Origin: Streptomyces sp. NBC_00557
Lineage (GTDB): Bacteria > Actinomycetota > Actinomycetes > Streptomycetales > Streptomycetaceae
Reading direction: 5' to 3'
Length of the DNA: 64,000 bases
Assembly (NCBI RefSeq): GCF_036345995.1
Contig: NZ_CP107796.1
Location: 3,658,001 to 3,722,000, forward strand
A model generated the notes under the pieces. It ran no database searches and had not been told where the DNA came from. It saw nothing but the letters and a program-made list of their open reading frames with translations. This document shows, piece by piece, positions 42,984 to 45,678 of this stretch. Made by a program: the position numbers and the translations under genes. Every line of letters starts with the position of its first letter. Within the stretch, counting starts at the first letter, position 1.

Positions 42984-43110
42984 GCCGACGAGGGACTGCT
43001 CTCCGGGAAGCTCGCCTCACTGCTGCGGCGCAACCGCCGGGTGGCCCGGGGTCTGGACCACTTCGGGGGGACGGTGTTCGCCGGGCTCGCGGTGCGCGCG
43101 ACATGTCAAC
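42984..43110 (+). pseudogene. Remnant of the C-terminus of a LysE/RhtB-type exporter
   Basis: Directly after the regulator stop codon the same frame continues with LLSGKLASLLRRNRRVARGL and then DHFGGTVFAGLAVR. The LRR..RVxRxLDxxxGTVFxGLxVRL pattern is the usual end of LysE-family exporters. Only about 40 residues remain, with no start and no membrane helices upstream, so this is a decayed fragment whose original gene was probably controlled by the neighbouring regulator. Recognition is by eye. Confidence 0.5.
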
Positions 43111-43147
43111 CATCGGTTGACAGCCATGGGGGCGCAACCTACGGTTG
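43104..43147 (+). promoter_or_regulatory. Leaderless promoter covered by two TCAACC/GGTTGA palindromes
   Basis: The -35 TTGACA (43117-43122) and -10 TACGGT (43140-43145) are 17 bases apart. Transcription should start at or next to the ATG at 43152, and no ribosome site is present. TGTCAACC-ATC-GGTTGACA (43104-43122) is a perfect palindrome that includes the -35. CAACC-TAC-GGTTG (43135-43147) repeats its core over the -10. The two centres are 28 bases apart. The arrangement implies tight autoregulation. Confidence 0.75.
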
Positions 43148-43151
43148 ACAC

Positions 43152-43916
43152 ATGGCGACCAACCCGAACATCACGGCATCCGTACGCCTCGACGACCTCA
43201 TCGAGGCCATCAAGAAGGCCCACAACGAACCCCTCGAGCAGCTCCAGGACGCGGTGATCGCCGCCGATCACCTCGGTGACGTGGCCGACCACCTGATCGG
43301 CCACTTCGTGGACCAGGCACGGCGCTCCGGCGCGTCCTGGACGGAGATCGGCCGGAGCATGGGCGTCACCCGGCAGGCGGCGCAGAAGCGGTTCGTGCCC
43401 AAGGAGTCCGCCGGCCTCGGCCCCGAGGACTTCAGCCGGTACACCCCGCGCGCGCGGAACGTGGTCATCGCCGCGCACAACGAAGCGGTGGCGGCTCGCA
43501 ACACCGAGGGCCGGCCCGAGCACCTGGTCCTCGGACTGCTCGCCGAACCGGACGGCCTGGCCGCGAAGGCGATCACCGCTCAGGGCGTGCTCCTCGACTC
43601 CGTACGGCAGGCCGCGACCGCCGCGCTCCCGCCCGCCGCGGAGAAGGCCCCGGACCTCGTCCCCTACGGCCCCGACGCCAAGAAAGCCCTGGAACTCACC
43701 TTCCGCGAGGCCCTGCGGCTCGGCCACAACTACATCGGCACCGAGCACATCCTGCTGGCGCTCCTGGAGCAGGAGAACGGCGAGGGCGTCCTCAGCGGCC
43801 TCGGCATCACCAAGGCCGCGACCGAGGAGCACATCGCCGAGATGCTGTCGCTGCTGCTGGAGCAGACGAAGGCGGCGACGGGGAAGGAGGCCGGACCGAC
43901 CTCCTCCGAAAAGTGA
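43152..43916 (+). CDS. HTH plus Clp N-terminal domain protein (ClpC2-like)
   Basis: Protein of 254 residues. The N-terminal part (1-85) contains a helix-turn-helix-like stretch SWTEIGRSMGVTRQAAQKRF. Residues 95-245 form a Clp-N domain with its two repeats: FSRYTPRARNVVIAAHNEAV, RPEHLVLGLLAEPDGLAAKA, then ALELTFREALRLGHNYIGTEHILLALLEQENG. It has no AAA+ ATPase module. The architecture matches mycobacterial ClpC2, which binds ClpC1-targeting cyclic peptides (cyclomarin class) and represses its own promoter. Twin palindromes cover the promoter here. A role as an antibiotic or substrate sensor is inferred. Confidence 0.87.
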   Translation: MATNPNITASVRLDDLIEAIKKAHNEPLEQLQDAVIAADHLGDVADHLIGHFVDQARRSGASWTEIGRSMGVTRQAAQKRFVPKESAGLGPEDFSRYTPRARNVVIAAHNEAVAARNTEGRPEHLVLGLLAEPDGLAAKAITAQGVLLDSVRQAATAALPPAAEKAPDLVPYGPDAKKALELTFREALRLGHNYIGTEHILLALLEQENGEGVLSGLGITKAATEEHIAEMLSLLLEQTKAATGKEAGPTSSEK

Positions 43917-43977: not shown

Positions 43978-45678
43978 ATGACGGACCGGTGGGCGCTCGC
44001 ACCGGCCGAGGACGGAGGCGTGGAGATCGCCCCCCTCGGCCCGGACGGGCTGCCCGCCGGGCCGGTGCGGCGGGAGAGCGATCTCGCCGGGGCGGTGCGG
44101 AGCCGCCCGGAGGTGACCCGCTGGGTGTGGCGGTCCACCCCCGAGGTCTACCCGCGTCTGCTCGCCACGGGGGTGCGAGTGGAGCGGTGCTACGACATCG
44201 AGGACGCCGAGACACTCCTGCTGGGCCACGAGGGCCGGTACGGCGAGCCGCGCTCGGCCGCCGCCGCCCTGGCCCGCCTCCGGGGCGGCCCCGTGCCGCC
44301 CGACCCGCCCCAGCGCCCGGCCGAACCGGGCGCCCAGTCCCCGCTGTTCGAGCCCACCGGGGCCCGCCTGCCGCTGACCGACCTCCTCGCGGTCTACGCC
44401 GAGCAGCTCAGGCGGCACCAGCGGACCGCCCACCCCGACCGGATGCGGCTGCTGACGGCCGCCGAGTCGGCCGGGATGCTGGTGGCCGCCGAGATGAACC
44501 ACGCGGGCGTGCCGTGGAGCGCCGAGGTCCACCGCCGCCTGCTGCACGAACTGCTCGGCGAGCGGTACGCGGGCGGCGGCGAGCCGCGCCGCCTCGCCGA
44601 GCTGGCCGACGAGATCTCCGCCGCCTTCGGCCGCCGGGTGCGCCCGGACCTGCCCGCCGATGTGATCAAGGCCTTCGCCCAGGCCGGCATCAAGGTGAAG
44701 TCCACCCGCCGCTGGGAGATCCGGTCCGTCGACCACCCGGCCGTGGAACCCCTGCTGGAGTACAAGAAGCTGTACCGCATCTGGGTGGCGCACGGCTGGT
44801 CCTGGTTGCAGGACTGGGTGCGCGACGGCCGTTTCCGTCCCGAGTTCCTCGCGGGCGGCACGGTCACCGGGCGCTGGGTGACCAACGGCGGAGGCGGCCT
44901 GCAGATCCCCAAGGTGATCCGCCGGGCCGTGGTCGCCGACCCCGGCTGGCGGCTGGTGGTGGCCGACGCCGACCAGATGGAGCCGCGCGTGCTCGCCGCG
45001 ATCTCCCGTGACCCCGGCCTGATGGAAGTCGCCGGCCGGGACGGCGACCTCTACCAGTCCGTCTCCGACCGAGCCTTCTCCGGTGACCGCAACCAGGCCA
45101 AGCTCGCCGTGCTCGGCGCGATCTACGGCCAGACCTCGGGGGACGGCCTGAAGAACCTCGCCGCGCTGCGCCGCCGCTTCCCCCAGGCCGTCGCGTACGT
45201 CGACGAGGCGGCCCGCGCGGGTGAGGAGGGCCGGCTGGTGCGCACGTGGCTGGGCCGTACCTGCCCGCCCGCCGCCGGCGCCGGCGAGGACGCCGCGGAG
45301 GAGGCGGGCATCCCCGTCGGCGACGACGACACCGACCCGCGGGGCGACGGCCAGGCGCCCTGGGTGCCCGGCTACGCCTCCACCAACTCCCGGGCGCGCG
45401 GCCGCTTCGCGCGGAACTTCGTCGTCCAGGGCAGCGCCGCCGACTGGGCGCTGCTGATGCTCGCCGGGCTGCGCCGGGCCTGCGCGGACCTCAAGGCCGA
45501 GCTGGTCTTCTTCCAGCACGACGAGGTGATCGTGCACTGCCCCGCCGAGGAGGCCGACACGGTCGTCCAGGCCATCCGGTCCTCCGCCGACCTCGCCGGG
45601 CGACTGACCTTCGGCGACACACCGGTGCGCTTTCCGTTCACGACGGCGGTGGTGGAGTGCTATGCCGACGCCAAGTGA
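43978..45678 (+). CDS. PolA-like family A DNA polymerase (bifunctional 3'-5' exonuclease/polymerase type)
   Basis: Family A DNA polymerase of 566 residues, shorter than housekeeping Pol I (about 900). Motif A is LVVADADQMEPRVLA, motif B RNQAKLAVLGAIYGQ with the conserved R, K and YG, and motif C FFQHDEVIVHC. The thumb region has GIKVKSTRRWEI. The 3'-5' exonuclease-like N-terminal part is degenerate, and there is no 5' nuclease domain. Streptomyces carries this as a second polymerase beside PolA, perhaps for repair. The ATG at 43978 follows the ClpC2-like gene by 61 bases. Confidence 0.9.
   Translation: MTDRWALAPAEDGGVEIAPLGPDGLPAGPVRRESDLAGAVRSRPEVTRWVWRSTPEVYPRLLATGVRVERCYDIEDAETLLLGHEGRYGEPRSAAAALARLRGGPVPPDPPQRPAEPGAQSPLFEPTGARLPLTDLLAVYAEQLRRHQRTAHPDRMRLLTAAESAGMLVAAEMNHAGVPWSAEVHRRLLHELLGERYAGGGEPRRLAELADEISAAFGRRVRPDLPADVIKAFAQAGIKVKSTRRWEIRSVDHPAVEPLLEYKKLYRIWVAHGWSWLQDWVRDGRFRPEFLAGGTVTGRWVTNGGGGLQIPKVIRRAVVADPGWRLVVADADQMEPRVLAAISRDPGLMEVAGRDGDLYQSVSDRAFSGDRNQAKLAVLGAIYGQTSGDGLKNLAALRRRFPQAVAYVDEAARAGEEGRLVRTWLGRTCPPAAGAGEDAAEEAGIPVGDDDTDPRGDGQAPWVPGYASTNSRARGRFARNFVVQGSAADWALLMLAGLRRACADLKAELVFFQHDEVIVHCPAEEADTVVQAIRSSADLAGRLTFGDTPVRFPFTTAVVECYADAK

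Follow-up and report, generated by a model that had tools for sequence, protein, structure and literature searches.

The clpC2-like locus and its product

The 64,000-nt stretch of DNA analysed here, called the window, is taken from contig NZ_CP107796.1 of Streptomyces sp. NBC_00557 (GCF_036345995.1, positions 3,658,001 to 3,722,000). It contains a gene whose 254-residue product joins a helix-turn-helix (HTH) domain to a Clp_N double repeat, and which is preceded by two operators that overlap its promoter. Homology strongly supports this gene as the Streptomyces orthologue of mycobacterial clpC2, and we consider it probable (roughly 0.8), on comparative grounds, that the product is a ClpC2-type autorepressor and decoy in which base reading falls to the HTH and sensing to the Clp_N domain, and that it belongs to a modular family of decoys of Clp N-domains that repress their own genes. 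The features concerned are as follows.

43104..43122, forward strand: operator 1, TGTCAACC-ATC-GGTTGACA (whole site TGTCAACCATCGGTTGACA), whose right half holds the -35
43117..43122, forward strand: putative -35, TTGACA, inside operator 1; TTGAC is present in site 1 of 126/126 orthologues
43132..43150, forward strand: operator 2, GCGCAACCTACGGTTGACA, 28 bp from operator 1, left arm degenerate
43140..43145, forward strand: putative -10, TACGGT, inside operator 2, after a 17-nt spacer and 7 nt ahead of the ATG
43152..43916, forward strand: clpC2-like gene, 254 aa, ATG start, no ATPase module
43152..43421, forward strand: N-terminal dimerisation/HTH domain, residues 1-90, matching 8ada, with the dimer pair D46-R57 and a low-confidence AlphaFold2 (AF2) model
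43338..43394, forward strand: HTH proper, residues 63-81, from conservation and covariation with half-sites
within the HTH proper: recognition helix T73-RQAAQKRF81, which is proposed to read GTCAAC
43431..43847, forward strand: Clp_N double repeat, approximately residues 94-232, a copy of the ClpC N-domain, with contact positions F94 and Y172

An earlier interpretation of the bare letters (the sequence-only reading) had proposed these gene coordinates and an HTH-like segment fused to a Clp_N double repeat without ATPase, and the open reading frame (ORF), Pfam and the match to 8ada bear it out. PF02861 (Clp_N) is found in two stretches of the product (E=2.8e-24), while Pfam returns no AAA+ domain match and the ORF stops at residue 254. 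Residues 7-72 resemble the N-terminal structure of Mycobacterium tuberculosis (Mtb) ClpC2, Rv2667 (8ada, E=4.7e-27), and residues 92-251 correspond to 8ad9, likewise Mtb ClpC2 (E=5.4e-38); the top PDB match of the entire protein is 9p2p 'ClpC2' (E=7.7e-64), and the nearest named protein is P0001 of Streptomyces, with 97% identity. The entries 9p2p, 9p39 and 9p4h are all ClpC2 proteins very near to that of the window, and our literature search found no paper carrying the code 9p2p. The Clp_N double repeat is 41% identical to that of ClpC1 from the same genome, an AAA+ unfoldase with which the window protein has this repeat in common but not the ATPase. The S. hawaiiensis protein also called 'ClpC2' is a Clp-ATPase working with ClpP (PMC9765437; cited, like the papers below, from part of its text), and differs from ours in the same respect.

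The two arms of operator 1 are complementary at 8/8 positions about a 3-nt centre, and operator 2 preserves its right arm as well as the core CAAC-N5-GTTG, in agreement with the earlier description of a 19-base palindrome over the -35 with its core repeated over the -10. This core occurs in the window at the two operators only, and of 20,000 dinucleotide shuffles made from 42984-43151, 66 contained it at least once and none twice. The -35 and -10 had also been called consensus-like; TACGGT matches TATAAT at only 3/6 bases.

Much of this arrangement has a precedent. Mycobacterial ClpC2 represses its own gene, cyclomarin binding lifts the repression, and the protein acts as a sponge (Taylor et al. 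2023, PMC10030653). That study gives the operator as CGTCAAC-n5-GTTGACG with a second copy, overlap with the -35 and -10, and an inferred leaderless transcript, in seven species of which none, in the part of the text used here, is a Streptomyces. Mtb ClpC2 and the window protein have in common the domain order, the D46-R57 pair and R185/R189, and their genes the doubled operator over -35/-10, the leaderless layout and the proposed role in self-repression and as decoy. They differ at the outer operator base, T/A in the window gene versus C/G in the published mycobacterial operator (PMC10030653), and in the left arm of site 2, which is degenerate here, unlike in mycobacterial ClpC2 operators. 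Because operator, leaderless inference, autorepression and cyclomarin response were published in 2023 for other actinobacteria, the window gene is less new than the sequence-only reading implied.

Conservation of the operator pair and promoter

We searched 121 same-genus and 246 same-class genomes, in overlapping sets, and took as an orthologue any locus with at least 47% identity in local tblastn (n=126, including the interrupted L105; loci are given as L numbers where needed). L002 and L004 were left out of this set, and 28 of the 96 strong same-genus rows lack fetched upstream DNA. A match at E<=1.1e-81 was counted by hand from the table in 96/121 same-genus genomes; among these the match in G017 is cut short, and one additional genome, G010, holds an interrupted copy. 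Sites were scored as GTCAA-N7-TTGAC, a single mismatch being allowed, or as the core CAAY-N5-RTTG.

Both operators are kept in 126/126 orthologues with fetched upstream DNA, a new observation, and one that answers a test set beforehand, in which absence of the palindromes before orthologous genes was to refute the proposal. The distance between operators is 28 bp in 85, 29 bp in 39 and 23 bp in 2. TANNNT lies within site 2 of 124/126, behind a -35/-10 spacer of 17 (85) or 18 nt (39), and the first in-frame start follows the -10 by 7 nt (89), 8 (32) or 9 (1), with none in range in 2. Given this constant geometry, operator pair, promoter and leaderless start are one conserved unit. Homology and conservation together strongly support a leaderless layout, in which transcription should begin at the start codon, and also the ClpC2 membership and operator autorepression proposed from the letters alone. 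The 23-bp spacing belongs to the clpC2 promoters of L060 and L065.

Of all 37-residue windows of the protein, the best conserved is 45-81, with a mean identity of 0.956; outside it the highest value is 0.861, at residues 176-212. D46 and R57 are each present in 126/126 orthologues, as are Q75, A76, Q78 and K79; R185 is found in 125/126 and R189 in 124/126, and at residue 172 there is Y in 67 orthologues, F in 58.

Which domain reads the operator

Taylor et al. assign DNA binding to Clp_N helix 174-189 (R185, R189) and dimerisation to the N-terminal domain (PMC10030653), an arrangement in which a ligand would block the DNA site directly. We move the reading of the operators from Clp_N to the HTH, where it very probably belongs, and consider the published assignment quite unlikely. 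In its favour, R185A/R189A weakens binding in electrophoretic mobility shift assays (EMSA) and complementation with the equivalent double arginine mutant raises expression 2.0-fold (PMC10030653), and both arginines are nearly invariant among ClpC2 orthologues, as given above. However, R185 is also present in the ClpC1 of the window's own genome, and binding of the probe by mycobacterial ClpC1 is weak and not very specific (PMC10030653); the same report presents a C-terminal domain (CTD) variant and R57A as supporting dimer formation for high affinity, and complementation with the dimer-deficient R57A raised expression 4.6-fold (PMC10030653).

Three comparisons speak for the HTH. First, GTCAA half-sites of the same type are found with proteins that share the HTH but have no Clp_N domain. 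Among 40 relatives retrieved with the N-terminal domain as the sole query, and fetched from the best-scoring rows that are not ClpC2, 21 have GTCAA-N6-TTGAC (9 loci) or GTCAA-N7-TTGAC (12) with at most one mismatch in the 330 bp ahead of the HTH. Approximately 0.2 loci per spacing are expected from dinucleotide shuffles, and spacings of 4, 5, 8, 9 and 10 give none. A Pfam scan of 20 of the 40 places Clp_N in L142, L143 and L144; L151, outside that scan, is similar to L143, and L141 can be aligned with ClpC2, though it has no Pfam match.

Second, the half-site bases track the recognition helix. Writing the half-site as GTCA-b5-b6 and considering genes with exact GTCA..TGAC sites (seven twice-fetched ClpX-type loci removed), helix QAAQK, that of ClpC2 (113/122 genes), is accompanied by A at b5 in 384/384 and C at b6 in 382/384; QAAWE (10/12 genes) by A22/G13/C1 at b5 and G at b6 in 34/36; and QSAWE (14/15 genes) by G at b5 in 51/52 and at b6 in 52/52. 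A further QSAWE set, from which six overlapping loci were removed, gives G in 256/258 at both positions.

Third, the operators persist where the arginines do not. R185 and/or R189 are replaced in 14 paralogues, of which 13 keep GTCAA-N7/N8-TTGAC operators; eight of the 13 lack R189 only (R/D, R/E), and both arginines are replaced in L003 (E/Q), L096 (S/G), L141 (E/A), L142 (E/E) and L143 (E/Q), with one mismatch per site in L003, L142 and L143. The dimer pair, by comparison, is retained as D46 and R/K57 in 22/22 sequences compared. In the Clp_N paralogue L096, the centre that separates GTCAA from TTGAC is 8 nt long at both operators rather than 7.

The assignment to the HTH must be tempered by several points that weigh against it or against the larger reading it belongs to. 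Because of the effects of the arginine mutants, the CTD may add contacts or allostery; we take it as the likeliest reading of the comparisons that the Clp_N arginines help DNA binding indirectly. By the criterion used above, 19/40 HTH relatives have no site, and the paralogues L098 and L151 (A/Q) have no operator. The helix code is imperfect, b6 being mixed with QAAQQ (15/24 genes; T17, C25, G8 of 50) and G in several halves of L142/L143, which have Q at position 78, and independent helix/half-site transitions are few because the classes are largely clades. The AF2 model of the N-terminal domain is poor, with a predicted local distance difference test (pLDDT) score of 55.8. The promoter of the window gene escaped a generic sigma-70 scan, owing to the weak -10, so that our promoter call is founded on the geometry conserved in orthologues and not on the sigma-70 consensus. 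Lastly, the HTH segment is homologous to the RelI antitoxin (Rv2664) of RelS-RelI (9sdc residues 34-87, E=4.4e-5; PMC13284704), which has been solved structurally; in the part of that report used here it gave no indication of binding DNA, and its upstream region showed no inverted repeats (PMC13284704). RelI is a protein of 85 aa that neutralises a toxin, unlike the window protein (PMC13284704). The HTH label for the N-terminal segment of ClpC2 is already used in the same paper, which also names fusions of RelI homologues to DUF3887 and DUF2812; neither ClpX-domain nor split Clp_N forms figure in its list as far as it was available (PMC13284704).

Proposed mechanism and ligands

Under the reading we prefer, with the HTH on the DNA, dimerisation through the D46-R57 domain would put two recognition helices on successive major grooves of the target GTCAAC-N5-GTTGAC, whose half-sites are 11 bp apart. 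Two such dimers would cover the promoter and occlude RNA polymerase, keeping the gene off. Occupation of Clp_N by a molecule normally destined for docking on ClpC (candidates are peptides that poison ClpC, substrates that are unfolded or bound to an adaptor, and foreign proteins) would weaken DNA binding, and the decoy, then made in quantity, would shield ClpC. If this is true, the published picture of DNA binding by ClpC2 needs correction in favour of the HTH over Clp_N, and ligand derepression works via allostery or dimer geometry and not by direct overlap. It would also bear on the unequal potency of ClpC-targeting peptides and on tolerance by producers and their neighbours, and the rules for half-site and spacing are quickly testable by gel shift.

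Three peptides bind Mtb ClpC2, namely cyclomarin, ecumicin and ilamycin (rufomycin), of which cyclomarin only is reported as an inducer in the text used (PMC12913811, 2026). This weakens the case for rufomycin as a probe, which the sequence-only reading had put forward; the role it proposed, a sensor of ClpC-targeting natural products or of phospho-arginine proteins, would be a candidate function. The Mtb cyclomarin contacts Q94, F96, F172 and E181 align with E92, F94, Y172 and E181 here. Because Tyr replaces Phe at 172 and only F94 is kept of the two contact phenylalanines, cyclomarin binding is not to be assumed in Streptomyces, and Y172 has to be counted with the points against our reading listed above.

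A serious alternative, to which we give somewhat less than even chances, is that the protein serves chiefly as a holdase, or as a buffer for substrates, under heat and proteotoxic stress, with natural products only mimicking its clients. Clp_N is a substrate-docking domain, a milder induction by heat and data with casein are reported for mycobacteria (PMC10030653), and the presence of strong matches in 96/121 same-genus genomes (E<=1.1e-81) argues against a tie to one biosynthetic cluster. For such a holdase, however, no client is known, and it alone does not explain why the docking domains of both ClpC and ClpX have been recruited (see below), though a general buffer would fit.

A two-gene HTH and Clp_N operon

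The HTH also occurs in a split form, with a short HTH gene (helix RQAVHKK or similar) in front and Clp_N encoded by a gene of its own behind it. Matches were found in 136/246 genomes, and we examined 38 loci (L299-L336), 30 returned by the search and 8 from picked rows. The N6 sites before L169 and L179 had been spotted by eye, and those of L179 are counted as L299. Pfam identifies the downstream ORF as Clp_N in 37/37 scanned loci, a count from which L327 is left out, its downstream gene not having been located, and which the frame chosen by eye for L304 favours by one. At least one core site lies upstream in 37/38, with pairs 27-29 bp apart in 23. Allowing at most one mismatch, spacing 6 accounts for 55 sites in the upstream regions, whereas spacings 4, 5 and 7-10 have none and 3 and 11 have one each; 108,230 other bases contain one spacing-6 site. 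Compared with ClpC2, the HTH, the Clp_N partner and the mostly paired operators are common, whereas HTH and Clp_N are separate proteins and the half-sites stand one bp closer (N4).

The window's own genome has such an operon, L329, at C1 approximately 2,769,500-2,769,770 on the minus strand, where the operators CGTCAACCCTGGTTGACA and TGTCAACGTAAGTTGACA are followed by CC and the ATG, and the -35/-10 arrangement resembles the one at clpC2. The 9.02-Mb genome has exactly two copies of GTCAACN4GTTGAC, each of them at L329, and the reversed control gives 0. L316 and L328 are split-type loci with a Clp_N gene of approximately 330 aa; L316 also matches AHSA1/Polyketide_cyc2, and the Pfam scan of downstream genes yielded two members of this type.

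ClpX zinc-binding domains with the same HTH

A further set of proteins fuses the same HTH class to a ClpX zinc-binding domain. Eighty loci were fetched; L257, which shows no HTH by our search expression, was dropped, leaving 79, and L219, L229, L269, L270, L276 and L283, already in the class sample, were removed to give 73. A site is found in 73/73 of these non-overlapping loci, and across the 79 there are 145 sites in 13,430 upstream bases against 3 in 159,714 bases elsewhere. These proteins resemble ClpC2 in the HTH class and in having operators before the gene, mostly in pairs, here of the form GTCARG. They occur in Pseudofrankia sp. DC12 (P0122), Planotetraspora, Herbidospora and others, and the only name given to them by the sources is 'ClpX C4-type zinc finger protein'. 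We know of no ClpX sponge, and found no papers on the ClpX-domain or split HTH and Clp_N forms in the openly licensed literature; that the same HTH and paired operators are coupled to a ClpX zinc-binding domain, or to a separate Clp_N protein, is to that extent new. In L145, L148 and L173 an HTH-like protein carries the ClpX zinc finger C-terminally instead (a Pfam match in L173, by eye in L145 and L148), and no operators were found before these three genes.

It stands about evenly balanced, in our judgement, that one HTH-dimer repressor serves as a socket for decoys of Clp-unfoldase docking domains, forming an actinobacterial layer of protease protection for ClpC and ClpX in which each member represses itself only, without cross-talk. 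The socket would accept the Clp_N of ClpC in cis, Clp_N in trans or the ClpX zinc-binding domain in cis, and specificity would be set by two recognition-helix positions and the half-site spacing, with two coexisting copies in the window's genome. If true, a ClpX sponge is predicted in many actinobacteria. The logic of a decoy, and the coverage of different unfoldases, ClpC and ClpX, would suit a defence or immunity sensor that traps phage or competitor proteins binding Clp N-domains; the gene is widespread, though, and adjoins a DNA polymerase A family gene in 27/29 closest loci, which looks like a fixed chromosomal place, and we think a role in defence unlikely.

Other sites and relatives

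GTCAA-N7-TTGAC, searched genome-wide as exact matches only, occurs at 4 sites in 9.02 Mb, the same number as the reversed-pattern control. The HTH domain and the three exact sites beyond that of the window gene would accord with an ordinary transcription factor whose regulon extends beyond its own gene, but against this stand the equal count in the control and the fact that, while two of the four sites precede HTH-family genes (one weakly), the other two have no such link; we regard this alternative as very improbable. One weak case is the HTH-only gene L004/L184, whose exact site (G000:C1:6878102-6878118) lies approximately 55-75 nt ahead of an internal ATG; the product of the gene next to L004/L184 we take to start like methionyl-tRNA formyltransferase.

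The 343-kb contig of the same genome (G000:C2) encodes a second HTH and Clp_N paralogue, L003, of 32% identity, with the one-mismatch operators AGGCAAGCCAGGCTTGACA and TGTCAATGAGTACTTGCCT ahead of its ATG. Elsewhere, L156 and L171 are HTH proteins with DUF3887, and L156 has a palindromic GTAAAG-type site and a Phe in the recognition helix, which suggests a shifted specificity. L149, L152, L158, L159, L161, L170 and L177 combine the HTH and N6 operators with a conserved N-terminus of the WPYPSY..WLGG type.

Three neighbours of the window gene were scanned with Pfam, giving an S41 peptidase, an ArsR-like regulator and the DNA polymerase A family protein, with no RelS-like toxin gene among them. 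The polymerase gene lies downstream at 43978-45678. In the window's genome clpC1 is approximately 52 kb from clpC2, and similar distances are seen in several other genomes of the genus.
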